Position numbers and translations under genes: made by a program | Notes under the pieces: generated by a model | Databases searched by the model: none | What the model was told of the DNA's origin: nothing | Seen by the model: the letters and a program-made list of their open reading frames with translations, nothing else | From: Verrucomicrobiota bacterium | Lineage (GTDB): Bacteria; Verrucomicrobiota; Verrucomicrobiia; Chthoniobacterales; SZAS-18 | Length of the DNA stretch: 38,283 nucleotides | Reading direction: 5' to 3' | Assembly (NCBI GenBank): GCA_025353105.1 | Contig: JANXRG010000032.1 | Coordinates: 1 to 38,283, forward strand | In this document: one piece after another, positions 146 to 5,425 of the stretch | Position numbering within the stretch: the first letter of the stretch is position 1 | Layout of the letters: each line of letters begins with the position of its first letter

Positions 146-1915
146 TTACACCGTCGGACGGAAATGTCCCACGGTCTCATGGAGGCACTCGGTGATCTGC
201 CCGAGCGAGCAGACCTCGACGGCCTCGATCAATTCTGCGAAGACGTTGCCGCCGTTCTCCACGCAGGACGTCAGGCGCTCGAGCGCCCGCGGGACTTTGT
301 CCGCGTTGCGTCGCTTGAAGTCGCCGAGCCGCGCGACTTGCAATTCCTTTTGCTTGCGTGGCGTGCGGATCATTTCGACCTCCGGCAGGCCGGTGCTTTC
401 ATTCCAGAGCCGGTTCAAGCCAATGACCGGACGCGTGCCGTCGTAAATCTGCTGCTCCATGCGGTGGGCCGAATGCTGAATTTGCGAGCGTTGATAGCGA
501 TGCTCCACCGCGCGCAGCACGCCGCCGAGACGATCGATCTCGCGGAACTCTTCGAGAATCGCCTTCTCCACCTGCCGCTCCACCGCCTGCATGCCGTGGG
601 CTCCGCCAAAAGTGTTCATCATGTGCTTAAAGAATCCGCTTTCCTCGAGCAAGATGGCCTGCGAGTGCGCGGCGAGGCGCACGTAGTCCTCGCTCGGCGT
701 GGTAAACGGCTCGTCGGCGCTGTTGCTGTGACTCGAGTTGGTCGCGTTCATGTACGCAATCATCAACTCGGCCGCGGTGCGCACCACGTTGTTGCGGAAC
801 TCCGCGGCAATCAGCGAACGCCCGCTCGTCTGCGTGTGCAGCTTGAGCATTTGGGCTTTGTGCCCGGCGTTAAAAATCTGCTTCATGCCCACCGCCCAAA
901 TCTTCCGGCAAACCCGCGCGAGCGCGAGGTATTCGATGTCGAGACCGCAATCGAGGAAGAACGAAAGCCGCGGCCCGAACGTCTCGAGCTTCATCCCGCG
1001 CGCCTGGAAAAGTTCGACGTAGGTGAAGCCGTTCGACAGCGTGTAGGCCGCCTGCTGGACCGGCGTCGCGCCCGCCTCGGCGATGTGATAACCGCTGATC
1101 GAGATCGGATAAAAGCGCGGCATCCGTTCGTTGCAGAATTCCGCCATGTCACCGAGAAAGCGCAGCGAATCCTCCATCGGGAAGAGGCACTCATTCTGCG
1201 CCTGGATTTCCTTGAGGACGTCCGCCTGCACCGTGCCGCGCAACTTGCCCACCACCTCTGGGCCGAAACGCCGCCGCGCCGCCGCCACGTACATCGCGAG
1301 GATGGCCGGCGCCGGGCCGTTGATCGTAAGCGACGCCGAAAAGTTCGGCTGGCCCATTTCAAAGCCGGCATACAAACGCTCCATGTCCTCGACCGTGTCC
1401 ACGGCCACGCCGCCTTCGCCGATCTTGCCGAACACGCCGTCGGCATCGCTGTCCATGCCGTAAAGCGTGGGACCATCGAACGCCGTGCTCAACCGGATCG
1501 TCCGCTGGCTTCTGGTGATGAAGTGAAAACGATCATTCGTGTCCTCACTGAGCCCAAGTCCCGCGAAGAGTCGCGTCGGCTCCTCGACATGGTTCACCTT
1601 TCCGTCCGCGTCGGGAAGAGGCTCGAGGTACTGTTCGCGATACACCCCGTTCAAAAAGGGGTATTCGCCGGGCAGACCCTCACCGACGAGGAAGCGGGCG
1701 ATTTCCGCGGGTTCGTCCGTGTGCGGCAAGGCGAGGCGCGGCAGCTCGATGCCGGTCGGCGTCTTGTGCATTGGAATCGCCGCGCGGATTTCGTCCCATC
1801 GCTTCTTCAACTCCGAGGCGTATTTGCTGTCGGTGCGTGCCCGCTGGATGGCGTCGACGACGGAATCATTGTGGCCTTCCACGGCTTGGGCGATGCGGGT
1901 GAGAGTCGTGCTCAT
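146..1915 (-). CDS. IcmF-type acyl-CoA mutase, catalytic (substrate-binding) subunit
   Basis: Adenosylcobalamin-dependent mutase TIM-barrel subunit of the methylmalonyl-CoA mutase family, 589 residues. From memory it resembles the C-terminal part of fused isobutyryl-CoA mutase IcmF: EEPTRLFAG near residue 113, RLSTAFDGPTLYG near 141, TINGPAPAILAM near 197, SISGYHIAEAGA, NGFTYVE and QTSGRSL. The two residues that set substrate choice read Phe (about residue 117) and Gln (about 240). This is the isobutyryl-CoA mutase pair; methylmalonyl-CoA mutase has Tyr and Arg. No B12-binding domain is present, so the protein must work with the upstream product at 2052-3197, which carries that domain and the G-protein chaperone. 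The start chosen is the ATG at 1915; a longer frame to 1990 merely translates a palindromic repeat. The likely reaction is reversible isobutyryl-CoA to n-butyryl-CoA; related acyl-CoAs are possible. Confidence 0.9.
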   Translation of the reverse strand: MSTTLTRIAQAVEGHNDSVVDAIQRARTDSKYASELKKRWDEIRAAIPMHKTPTGIELPRLALPHTDEPAEIARFLVGEGLPGEYPFLNGVYREQYLEPLPDADGKVNHVEEPTRLFAGLGLSEDTNDRFHFITRSQRTIRLSTAFDGPTLYGMDSDADGVFGKIGEGGVAVDTVEDMERLYAGFEMGQPNFSASLTINGPAPAILAMYVAAARRRFGPEVVGKLRGTVQADVLKEIQAQNECLFPMEDSLRFLGDMAEFCNERMPRFYPISISGYHIAEAGATPVQQAAYTLSNGFTYVELFQARGMKLETFGPRLSFFLDCGLDIEYLALARVCRKIWAVGMKQIFNAGHKAQMLKLHTQTSGRSLIAAEFRNNVVRTAAELMIAYMNATNSSHSNSADEPFTTPSEDYVRLAAHSQAILLEESGFFKHMMNTFGGAHGMQAVERQVEKAILEEFREIDRLGGVLRAVEHRYQRSQIQHSAHRMEQQIYDGTRPVIGLNRLWNESTGLPEVEMIRTPRKQKELQVARLGDFKRRNADKVPRALERLTSCVENGGNVFAELIEAVEVCSLGQITECLHETVGHFRPTV

Positions 1916-1936
1916 GGGGGATCGTCGGACTTGGAA

Positions 1937-2036
1937 CCACAGATTAACGCAGATTGACGCAGATTCTTGTGAAAGGAGTTCCGATTCCACTGATTCTGCA
2001 TTCAGAAAAAGCTGCGTTCATCTGCGAAATCTGTGG
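1937..2036. repeat. 100-nt imperfect palindromic intergenic repeat
   Basis: The left arm at 1937-1962 starts ccacagattaacgcagatt. The right arm at 2012-2036 is nearly its reverse complement and ends aaatctgtgg. The arms enclose about 50 nt. Similar 'cgcagatt' palindromes are common in intergenic DNA of several bacterial phyla. This one lies between the two genes of the split IcmF and would fold as a hairpin in the shared transcript. It carries no recognisable coding sequence. Confidence 0.75.
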
Positions 2037-2051
2037 ACAAGAAATCCCAAT

Positions 2052-3197
2052 TTATTGGGTCAGCAGTTTGAAAAGTTCGTCCACACCCTTATCCCGGTGA
2101 CGCTTCGCGCAGGTCGTCACGAGTTGCTGGCCCTGCTTGTTGAACGCGATGCGCTGTTCCACCTCGGCGGTCGCGGTCTTGGCGCCGGAGTAGTCGGATT
2201 TGTTCACGACCACGATGTCGGCCACGTCGAGCATGACAATCTTCTGCAGCTGCAGCCGGCTGCCATAGTCCGGGCCCATCACAAACATCGTCTTGTCCAC
2301 CAGCTCGCGGCCGAAGGGCGCCGCTTCCTGGCCAATGCCGACCGTCTCCACCAAGATGAGATCGAAGCCCGCACTGCCCAGGAAGCGCAGACAGCGCTCC
2401 GTCGTGGGTGCAAGTCCGCCGGCCTGGCCACGTGTGCCAAGCGAACGCATGAAGACGCGTTCGTGCTGCGAGTAAATCATCGTCGCGCGATCCCCGAGCA
2501 ACGCGCCCTTGCCCAGAATGCTCGGGTCGTGCGACAGCACCGCGACGCGTCCGTTGGGCTGCAGCTTCAAGAAACGCAAGACCAACTCATCGATCAACGT
2601 GGTCTTCCCCACCCCGCCGGGGCCGGTGATACCAATGACGATGGAATGTCCGCTTGAACCGATCTTGCGTCCGGTCCATTCCGCGGGACCGCTGCCGTCT
2701 TCCGCCGCCGAAAGCGTCCGCGAGAACCGCCACTCCTCGCTCCCGTGTTTGGGCACGGTCGTCGGCCGCACTCCGCCGTAGCGCTGATCGATTTCCTCCA
2801 TCATCTGGGCCAACGGCGTGCCGGCGAAATAAATGCGGTCGGTGCCCTCTTTATACATCTGCTCGGTGTCGGCGTGCGTAATCGTGCCGCCGCCCCCGCC
2901 GAAGATCTTGATGTCATCGGCACCCGCCTCGCGCAACATCATCACGATCTCATTGAAAAACTCGATGTGCCCCCCGTTGTAGGTCGAGAGACCAATGGCC
3001 CGCACATCCTCCTGGATGGCCGCCCGCACGATCTCCTTCGCCCCGCGGTGATAACCCAAATAGATCACCTCCAAACCGTGCCTAATCAGCTCGAGATTGA
3101 TCGTGTTGATGGCGCTGTCGTGACCGTCGCAAATCGGCACGGCCGTCAAGAGTCGCGTGGGCATGGTTTCATTCTTGGGCGCGGTGGAAACGCTCAT
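2052..3197 (-). CDS. IcmF-type B12-binding domain fused to MeaB-like G-protein chaperone
   Basis: Two-domain protein of 381 residues matching the N-terminal two-thirds of fused IcmF. Residues about 15-140 are the cobalamin-binding domain. It has DGHDSA (D24, H26, the lower axial histidine), GLSTYNGGH near 69 and the Gly run FGGGGGT near 99. DGHDxA rather than DxHxxG is, from memory, usual in IcmF. Residues about 185-380 are a MeaB/ArgK-type P-loop GTPase with Walker A GPGGVGKT at 192-199, ALLGDRATM, an ETVGIGQ switch segment and the NKSD base-recognition motif. It would load and protect adenosylcobalamin and supply the B12 domain for the mutase at 146-1915, transcribed next on the same strand. 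The ATG at 3197 was preferred over the GTG at 3200. The gene is divergent from the fabG-like gene at 3296. Confidence 0.9.
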   Translation of the reverse strand: MSVSTAPKNETMPTRLLTAVPICDGHDSAINTINLELIRHGLEVIYLGYHRGAKEIVRAAIQEDVRAIGLSTYNGGHIEFFNEIVMMLREAGADDIKIFGGGGGTITHADTEQMYKEGTDRIYFAGTPLAQMMEEIDQRYGGVRPTTVPKHGSEEWRFSRTLSAAEDGSGPAEWTGRKIGSSGHSIVIGITGPGGVGKTTLIDELVLRFLKLQPNGRVAVLSHDPSILGKGALLGDRATMIYSQHERVFMRSLGTRGQAGGLAPTTERCLRFLGSAGFDLILVETVGIGQEAAPFGRELVDKTMFVMGPDYGSRLQLQKIVMLDVADIVVVNKSDYSGAKTATAEVEQRIAFNKQGQQLVTTCAKRHRDKGVDELFKLLTQ

Positions 3198-3295
3198 CAC
3201 GCTATGATGCGGGAGATTTTTGAATAATGAAGTGAGATTTATGATTAAGTGCTCTTGGATGTCACAAATCTGTAATCGAAAATCTGAAATCTGAA

Positions 3296-4057
3296 ATGCC
3301 CACCAACCCTTTCGACCTCACCGGCAAACTCGCCCTCGTCACCGGCGCCTCGCGCGGCATCGGCGCGGGCATCGCGCTGGCCCTGGCGCAGAGCGGCGCT
3401 CGCGTAATCCTGAACTATTTCGCCGACCCAGACGGGAAGAACCGCGCCGAGGCGGAGGCGATGGGCGCGCAATGCCCTGGTTCCGTGTTGATGGAGGCCG
3501 ACGTCAGCAAATCCGAGGAAGTAAACCGGATGTTCACCGTGATTGGAACCCAGCATGGCGGACTCGACATCCTCATTGCGAACGCCGGCATCATTCGCGA
3601 TCGCACGATCACGAAGATGACCGACGACGAATTTCAATCGGTGATCGACGTGAACCTGCGCGGCGTCTTCCATTGCATCCGTGCCGCGACTCCCCTTCTG
3701 CGCGAAAACGGCCGCGTCGTGACGATGGCCTCAGTCGCGGGCCAAATGGGCTTCTTCGGCCAGGCCAACTATGCGCCGAGCAAGGCGGCGGTGATTGCGC
3801 TGACCAAGGTCGCCGCGCGCGAGCTGGCGCGGAAGAAGATCACGGCGAATGCGATTGCGCCGGGATTCATTGAGACGGCGATGACCCAGGATATGCCCGA
3901 CGAGGTCACTCGCAAAACCCTCGAGCAAATTCCGCTTGGCACCAAGGGCCAGGTCGACGACATCGTCCACGCCGCGCTCTTTCTCTGCTCCCCCGGCGCC
4001 CGCTATATCACCGGCCACGTCCTCAACGTGAACGGCGGATTTTATATGGGTGCTTGA
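3296..4057 (+). CDS. FabG-type short-chain dehydrogenase (3-oxoacyl-ACP/CoA reductase)
   Basis: Classical SDR of 253 residues. It has the NAD(P)-binding TGASRGIG near residue 16, NAG near 87, a catalytic Ser in MASVAGQMG near 143, and Tyr/Lys in YAPSK near 156-160. The C-terminal VNGGFYMGA is typical of FabG-like reductases. It would reduce 3-oxoacyl thioesters to 3-hydroxyacyl thioesters with NADPH. The neighbours are an acyl-CoA mutase (divergent) and a thiolase (convergent, 13 nt away), so an acetoacetyl-CoA or 3-oxoacyl-CoA reductase role outside the core fatty acid synthase is plausible. The acyl carrier, ACP or CoA, cannot be told from sequence. The upstream 98 nt contain A/T-rich repeated 'aaatctg' units and presumably both divergent promoters. 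Confidence 0.85.
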   Translation: MPTNPFDLTGKLALVTGASRGIGAGIALALAQSGARVILNYFADPDGKNRAEAEAMGAQCPGSVLMEADVSKSEEVNRMFTVIGTQHGGLDILIANAGIIRDRTITKMTDDEFQSVIDVNLRGVFHCIRAATPLLRENGRVVTMASVAGQMGFFGQANYAPSKAAVIALTKVAARELARKKITANAIAPGFIETAMTQDMPDEVTRKTLEQIPLGTKGQVDDIVHAALFLCSPGARYITGHVLNVNGGFYMGA

Positions 4058-4070
4058 ACCTCCGGAACGT

Positions 4071-5309
4071 CTACTCCCTGCCCCACGCCATCACGACGCT
4101 GGTGGTCAGGCTACCGCCCATGTTAAACGTGAGATAGGTCTTCGCGTTCTCGATCTGGCGCGCGCCGGCTTCGCCCCGAAGCTGGGTCGCGGCTTCCACG
4201 ACCTGGCGCACGCCGGTGCCACCCACCGGGTGACCGTCGGCAATCAAGCCGCCGCCGGCGTTCACGGGGATCACCTTGGTCGCCGGCTTCGGCAGGCCGA
4301 GCGACTCGCGCACCTGCGGCAACGCGGTCGCGCCGCTCTCGGCGAGTTCGCCACCCCGGCCCATTGGCGCGAGGCCAAGCAATTCGGTTGCGACCACCTC
4401 GGTGATCGAAAAACAATCGTGCACTTCGACGCCATCCGCATCGTTTGGCTTGATCCCGCTCATGGTGTAAGCGCGTTGTGCCGCCAACCGCGCAATCGGA
4501 AATTCCGGCATCTGCTTGTCCTCGAGACGCAGATGATCCGTCGACACCCCATAGCCCAGCAGTCGCACTTTCGTCCCGGTCGCACCCAGCTTCGCGAGCA
4601 TTTTTCCGGAGACGAGCACAAGCGCCGCGCCGCCGTCGGTGATTTGCGAGCAATCGGACAGCCGCAGCGGCGACGCGATCAGCGGATTCTTTTCTGAGAT
4701 CGTACTCGCGAAATCGACCGTCATCGTGTTCTCGCGCATCTGCGCCAGCGGATTCAATTTCGCGTGCGCGTAATTCTTCGCCGCGACCACCGCAAGCTGC
4801 CGCTCGGTGAGACCACACTTCTTCATGTGCGACTCCGCAATGCGCCCAAATAATTTTGGGAACATGAAATCACCGTATTGCGAGCGCTCGTGATGGAAAT
4901 CGCCCGCCGCCGCAAGGACGTCGCCGCCATCGGCCGACGACATCGTCTTTTGCTGTTCGGCACCGACCACGAGCACCGCCTCGTGGATTCCGCCCGCGAT
5001 GAGTTGAATCGCCTGGATGACCGCGAGGCTGCCCGAGGCGCAGGCGCCTTCGACGTGGGAAGTCGGCAGGCCGCGGAGGGATTCGTCGATCTCGGTCAGG
5101 AACGCGCCGAGATGCAACTGACGCGTGAAAAGTCCGGCTGCAAAATTTCCGACCACGCCGGCCCCGAGGTCCTTGGGATCGAGACCGGAAGCGCGTAGCG
5201 CGTCGCGACCGGGCTCGACAATGGCATCGCGGAGCGACTTGCCTTCCTTCTTGAGGTTGCGTTTGAAATCAGTCCGCGCGGTGGCGATGAGATAGACAGG
5301 CTCGGGCAT
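4071..5309 (-). CDS. Thiolase family protein (acetyl-CoA acyltransferase-like, SCP-x type)
   Basis: Thiolase-fold enzyme of 412 residues. The nucleophilic Cys lies in EGACASGS near residue 86, and the C-terminal catalytic elements are EVHDCFSITE and GGLIADGHPVGGTG. The HDCF form and the overall sequence are closer to SCP-x/acetyl-CoA acetyltransferase-like thiolases than to classical FadA or PhaA. The expected reaction is reversible Claisen condensation or cleavage of 3-oxoacyl-CoA. Together with the FabG-like reductase and the IcmF subunits next to it, it suggests a local acyl-CoA interconversion set. The start is set at the ATG at 5309 (MPEPVYLIATARTDF); a longer frame to 5342 reads into the neighbouring inverted repeat. 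Confidence 0.85.
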   Translation of the reverse strand: MPEPVYLIATARTDFKRNLKKEGKSLRDAIVEPGRDALRASGLDPKDLGAGVVGNFAAGLFTRQLHLGAFLTEIDESLRGLPTSHVEGACASGSLAVIQAIQLIAGGIHEAVLVVGAEQQKTMSSADGGDVLAAAGDFHHERSQYGDFMFPKLFGRIAESHMKKCGLTERQLAVVAAKNYAHAKLNPLAQMRENTMTVDFASTISEKNPLIASPLRLSDCSQITDGGAALVLVSGKMLAKLGATGTKVRLLGYGVSTDHLRLEDKQMPEFPIARLAAQRAYTMSGIKPNDADGVEVHDCFSITEVVATELLGLAPMGRGGELAESGATALPQVRESLGLPKPATKVIPVNAGGGLIADGHPVGGTGVRQVVEAATQLRGEAGARQIENAKTYLTFNMGGSLTTSVVMAWGRE

Positions 5310-5323
5310 AAGGGGGAAGAGTT

Positions 5324-5425
5324 GGAACCACGAATTTAACACGAAATTACACGAATTCTAAAGACAAAGGACTGCCGCCGCGTCCTCAGCCGTTTGTGTT
5401 CTGTTCGTGTAAAATTCGTGGTTCC
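5324..5425. repeat. Inverted repeat of the 'ggaaccacgaa..cacgaa' family
   Basis: The left arm begins ggaaccacgaattt at 5324. The right arm ends aaaattcgtggttcc at 5425, its reverse complement. Internal acacgaa-like units occur on both sides. It fills the gap between the thiolase start and the L,D-transpeptidase stop. A degenerate half-copy lies at 12461-12499 and a short one at 114-138. This is an intergenic palindrome family, possibly REP-like or MITE-like. Confidence 0.7.

Follow-up and report, generated by a model that had tools for sequence, protein, structure and literature searches.

Results

Two genes following the IcmF domain order

The window, i.e., the whole stretch of DNA analysed here (38,283 nt from a Verrucomicrobiota bacterium), carries close to its first position two consecutive genes on the minus strand. 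The upstream gene (2052-3200) encodes a 382-aa protein in which a B12-binding domain is fused to a MeaB-like GTPase (B12-G), as matched by the Pfam families B12-binding (E=4.5e-13) and MeaB (E=2.4e-39). The downstream gene (146-1915) encodes the mutase barrel, or large subunit, of 589 aa, which is recognised by Pfam (MM_CoA_mutase, E=2.3e-111), NCBIfam and PDB matches and whose reading frame lacks a B12 domain. B12-G starts at a GTG at 3200, with an ATG (3197) as its next codon and a further possible start at the ATG of residue 13, and the barrel starts at an ATG at 1915 in a frame that is open up to a GTG at 1990. Positions 3-392 of the NCBIfam IcmF model match the B12-G protein and positions 486-1074 match the barrel, so these are two genes in the IcmF domain order, as an earlier note on this DNA had proposed. 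The two halves score 287.8 and 537.5 bits against this model (NF045497), below its equivalog cut-off of 1500 bits, which is set for single-chain IcmF. IcmF is also the best PDB match of both proteins (barrel against 4xc6, E=7e-126), and both are 77-86% identical to relatives in the genus.

The barrel is read in a different frame from B12-G, and 136 nt lie between the B12-G stop and the barrel ATG (1916-2051). A dispersed palindromic repeat is represented once in this spacer, at approximately 1937-2030. With up to one mismatch allowed, its arm, TCTGCGTTAATCTGTGG, has 13 genomic sites and none in a reversed control, and the arms often form inverted pairs approximately 80-140 bp apart. A repeat search found no exact inverted repeats in the spacer, the arms being imperfect. 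The dispersed repeat probably explains the unusual length of the gap.

Searching the rest of the window's genome (a 97.6% complete assembly) for a fused IcmF with a separate chaperone, which the earlier note had named as a sign that the pair is unrelated, returned neither a second MM_CoA_mutase-family barrel nor a second MeaB-family protein. As far as the assembly shows, the pair is therefore the cell's only mutase of this family together with its chaperone. The genome also encodes one PF01923 adenosyltransferase and one further B12-binding protein, a 942-aa frame which, from its length, we take to be MetH.

Domains and motifs of the B12-G protein

The B12-binding domain occupies residues 11-142 (2775-3170, minus strand), with DGHDSA at residues 25-30 corresponding to the motif DxHxxA. 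The last position of this motif is A in 23/23 proteins of the split type, i.e., those with B12-G and barrel on separate polypeptides, and A, S or T in all fused IcmFs, while all eight three-gene and MCM rows have G (DxHxxG). A GGGG stretch is likewise common to split and fused proteins and gapped in the three-gene rows. The GTPase domain (residues 177-382; 2055-2672, minus strand) retains the P-loop K199, switch II E285, switch III Q317 and K320, and NKxD. It ends at the G core, with tails of 0-36 aa in relatives, and lacks the C-terminal extension of MeaB, which has a role in dimerisation (PMC9974510).

Within switch III (residues 310-321; 2238-2273, minus strand), Q317 and K320 are the counterparts of Q341 and K344 of IcmF and are invariant across all split and fused rows. 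In IcmF, switch III props the mutase open, the K344A variant has no detectable GTPase activity and Q341A has lowered activity (PMC10481361). An AlphaFold2 model of B12-G (pLDDT 87, pTM 0.88) superposes in one piece on residues 21-413 of IcmF (Z 47, 2.3-2.4 Å over 366-368 residues). This is to be expected, the IcmF structures having been part of AlphaFold2's training data, and the fold match is not independent support.

The barrel and the site of the cut

Two positions of the barrel are tied to substrate specificity in the mutase family. Here they are F117 (1565-1567, minus strand), the counterpart of Tyr89 of MCM, and Q240 (1196-1198, minus strand), the counterpart of its Arg207. F and Q stand at these positions in 45/45 split and 73/73 fused barrels, and the pair is Y/R in MCM and I/Q in HCM-type rows. 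The active-site histidine, H277 (1085-1087, minus strand), is invariant in all groups. The AlphaFold2 model of the barrel was of low confidence (pLDDT 70) and was left unused.

At the barrel N-terminus, residues 1-31 (1823-1915, minus strand) form a helix, MSTTLTRIAQAVEGHNDSVVDAIQRART, that corresponds to the linker helix of IcmF (consensus RYLxEIAExxRxYxxxVxxQxxiA). Aligned with hhalign, split barrel N-termini match IcmF linkers with 90% probability (E=1.4e-6; reversed control 2.9%), and profile comparison found no linker-helix match in the three-gene mutases. In fused IcmFs, at least 81 residues separate the G core from the barrel profile, with a median of 94 in one set; the split pair lacks a connector of approximately 30 residues that precedes the linker helix, and its remaining linker is shorter than in IcmF. 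Judging from the alignments, the missing connector would correspond to approximately residues 414-444 of Cupriavidus metallidurans IcmF, which agrees with the two rigid bodies, 22-442 and 443-1093, that were docked into cryo-EM maps of IcmF (PMC10481361). Two other readings of this region were rejected. The IcmF linker is not entirely missing from the split pair, whose barrels retain its helix N-terminally, and an origin of the IcmF linker in the MeaB C-terminal extension found no profile match (0.3%).

Neighbouring genes

Upstream of B12-G lies a divergent gene for a short-chain reductase (SDR) of the 3-oxoacyl/acetoacetyl-CoA reductase type (3296-4057, plus strand; NCBIfam), a divergently oriented homologue of which accompanies B12-G in most of the order's relatives for which the flank is long enough. 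It is followed by a gene for a thiolase-family acetyl-CoA acetyltransferase (4071-5342, minus strand; NCBIfam), a probable pathway neighbour with homologues upstream of B12-G at four loci (L018, L022, L160 and L167) in three genomes of a sister genus. A reductase and a thiolase would fit a route from isobutyryl-CoA through n-butyryl-CoA to acetyl-CoA.

Distribution and linkage of the split layout

Among 147 genomes of the same order, B12-G is present in 40 and at least part of a matching barrel in 39 of these, counts that were tallied by hand from tables; the exception, G003, has B12-G with no barrel detected, perhaps through incompleteness of the genome. In 384 genomes of the same class, 29 of 30 matches were of the split type, and the remaining one, G1011, is an ordinary fused type of 42% identity cut by a contig end. 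B12-G and barrel are separate in all examined relatives of the split clade, whose named members are Verrucomicrobia MAGs and Opitutaceae, and approximately 1,000 distinct genomes sampled held no fused relative on the split branch. A survey of 396 genomes from the phylum of G524 and G528, in which nearly the same genomes were drawn twice, gave no split-type B12-G and only fused-type matches, the short frames in G773 and G814 being cut by contig ends. The conservation of separate halves across dozens of genomes excludes a sequencing frameshift or chance. The earlier note had described the separate chaperone-B12 gene as an unusual intermediate layout; the separation holds, but the layout is no oddity of one genome and is conserved clade-wide in the Verrucomicrobiota relatives surveyed.

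In genomes with linked genes, a 4-nt stop-start overlap, suggestive of translational coupling, was found in 18/41, and the other spacers range from 0 to approximately 300 nt, with 1.8 kb in G039. In G046, from the window's genus, the barrel is on another contig, and the B12-G contig (236 kb) carries the gene at 148 kb, with at least 87 kb between it and either end, so neither fusion in cis nor adjacency is needed. B12-G and barrel are also on different contigs in G030 (window's genus) and G013 (same family), and simple adjacency across a contig break is no explanation for these.

Some features of individual genomes were also recorded. In G039, a relative at the family level, B12-G and barrel are separated by three genes, one of PD-(D/E)XK type and two unknown ORFs (L160:3082-6636), with an HNH/NUMOD4 gene directly upstream and the barrel in two overlapping frames. 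By family, classical MCM, with a barrel approximately 35% identical, and the split mutase are largely mutually exclusive across the order: the split form occurs in families f1, f4 and f8, MCM in f2, f10, f11, f12 and several members of f5 and f6, and few genomes (G070, G022) have both. Two members of the order, G007 and G017, are single-contig genomes of 0.9 Mb, which may point to reduced symbionts and would be in keeping with Chthoniobacterales (Xiphinematobacter-like). Among fused-type IcmFs, that of a Saprospiraceae MAG (L134:5932-9309) is interrupted by a single in-frame stop precisely where the G domain gives way to the barrel, leaving 439 and 686 aa, which points to a recent split, to readthrough of the stop or to an error in the assembly, and that of a Holophagaceae MAG (L087:5677-9329) has its barrel broken by a frameshift.

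Phylogeny

Trees were inferred with IQ-TREE under a mixture model for the barrel (50 rows) and for B12-G (57 rows). The fused IcmF sample was large and drawn by patterns from a mixed alignment, with Planctomycetota and other deep phyla outside deliberate sampling. The split proteins form one clade in the barrel and B12-G trees (support 100/100 and 99/96), as do the fused IcmFs (100/100 and 100/99), and in both trees the two clades are sisters, apart from three-gene mutases, HCM-type proteins and MCM; a further tree of 76 rows agrees. The barrel thus stands beside fused IcmF rather than with MutB/HcmA, the placement that would have counted against the earlier note. The further claim of that note, that the motifs of the pair are closer to IcmF than to MutAB/MeaB or IcmAB, is borne out as to closeness to IcmF, with the refinement that the pair is the sister of fused IcmF and lies outside it.

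Split and fused barrels are divided by long branches (0.8-1.2), and AU tests rejected six alternatives, each grouping the split clade with a different fused subgroup (p from 5e-9 to 1.2e-4). A recent fission inside IcmF is ruled out by the trees and these tests. The trees were rooted on MCM/HCM by assumption, a rooting supported by features common to split and fused proteins only, namely DxHxxA/S/T, GGGG, the B12-G fusion, the absence of the MeaB extension and the linker helix.

Discussion

Function and mechanism

We read the pair as a two-subunit, IcmF-type, AdoCbl-dependent acyl-CoA mutase that is the sister of fused IcmF, with a history that is simplest if B12 and G domains fused first; on the sequence evidence, we give this reading a probability of about 80%. 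The barrel subunit would bind the acyl-CoA, and the second subunit would unite the B12 domain with a GTPase chaperone of its own on one chain. B12-G is predicted to dock to the barrel in trans, and two B12-G subunits, paired through their G domains in a GTP-driven step, would hold the B12 domain off the barrel, giving an open state in which the cofactor may be loaded, removed or exchanged with the adenosyltransferase. GTP hydrolysis would then close the B12 domain onto the barrel, as proposed for MeaB/MCM and IcmF. In fused IcmF, G-domain pairing builds higher-order oligomers (PMC10481361); in the split system, the second G domain could come from a free B12-G subunit. The formation of the complex in trans and its GTP gating are inferred here, as are the substrate and the direction of evolution.

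The F/Q pair and the neighbouring genes point to isobutyryl-CoA/n-butyryl-CoA as the putative substrate pair. It is conceivable, if unlikely, that the same architecture acts on another substrate, e.g., another branched C4-C5 acyl-CoA. The length of the branches between split and fused barrels would accommodate this, as would barrel position 154 (before DSDADG), which is I/M/L/V in split and mostly E/N in fused proteins. However, the main specificity positions are F and Q without variation in both groups, and the thiolase and 3-oxoacyl reductase genes beside the pair fit a C4 route.

Evolutionary history

The history that we consider probable is a stepwise fusion, in which B12 and G domains were joined in the common ancestor and the barrel was added only in the IcmF line. 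It is the simplest account, since it takes two events against three for full fusion followed by fission, and three-gene mutases with the order B12-MeaB-barrel (L155, L072) demonstrate that the gene order can precede fusion. An ancient fission would instead start from a complete IcmF in the common ancestor, which the Verrucomicrobiota line later broke after the G domain and before the linker helix; placed on the stem of the split clade, it would produce an identical tree. The linker helix counterpart at the barrel N-terminus is as a cut upstream of it would leave, and the two genes, mostly neighbours and in many cases with a 4-nt overlap, are arranged as they might be after a frameshift split. 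Nevertheless, such a fission requires the additional event, though only one, the split branch yielded no fused relative in the genomes sampled, G1011 being of the ordinary fused type, and the three-gene order already exists in unfused mutases; we regard it as the less likely history. That the pair reflects a recent frameshift, an assembly error or a decaying IcmF pseudogene in the window's genome can be practically dismissed: the dispersed repeat in the spacer does mark a disturbed region, but the same separate layout recurs in dozens of genomes from several families, all catalytic and GTPase motifs are kept in both proteins, and their identity to genus relatives is high (77-86%).

Under stepwise fusion, the split pair might keep an intermediate in the assembly of IcmF, a self-loading B12-chaperone module that would dock onto a separately made barrel and, being free, could pair via its G domains and exchange there without the chain-forming oligomers of fused IcmF; we offer this tentatively, at somewhat less than even odds. 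The pair also suggests in which order the domains of IcmF may have been fused. As its natural cut falls at the boundary between B12-G and barrel, G-domain-driven loading of B12 becomes testable in a system where the module must first find its barrel, and the need for higher-order oligomers becomes directly testable. The split branch will also escape NCBI's IcmF model, given the single-chain architecture and 1500-bit cut-off of that model.

Comparison with known systems

No description of the two-gene form was found in the literature searched, which did not cover the original IcmF and pivalyl-CoA mutase papers, so that an earlier mention is possible. The closest known system is IcmF of Cupriavidus metallidurans (4XC6), which shares the B12 - G - barrel order, the F/Q pair, DxHxxA/S, GGGG, the Q and K of switch III, the linker helix and the lack of a MeaB-type C-terminal extension, but is one polypeptide rather than two, has the connector that is absent here and belongs to the sister clade at about 35-44% identity. 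HcmA/HcmB with a MeaB-like GTPase (Methylibium, Xanthobacter plasmids) resembles the pair in having the barrel on its own polypeptide and a chaperone encoded nearby; its B12 domain and GTPase are, however, two genes, its specificity pair is I/Q, its barrel falls in another clade and it has no linker helix. The three-gene mutases of Sinorhizobium (L072) and G347 (L155) share the gene order B12 - MeaB - barrel, whereas none of their proteins are fused and their barrels lie outside the clade of IcmF and split proteins. In G347, from the same phylum but outside the class, the three genes overlap or nearly do so (L155:2727-5771).

MutAB with MeaB has a homologous barrel, B12 domain and GTPase; unlike in the pair, the B12 domain of MCM is C-terminal on the barrel, MeaB is separate and carries its C-terminal extension, and the specificity pair is Y/R. 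In IcmA/IcmB-type and PCM-type mutases, the small subunit is a B12 domain alone, in contrast to the B12 domain with GTPase found here. Finally, MeaB with the isolated B12 domain of MCM (8DPB) combines B12 domain and GTPase without a barrel and so resembles the natural B12-G subunit, although it is a minimal laboratory system of two chains from which the barrel was removed.
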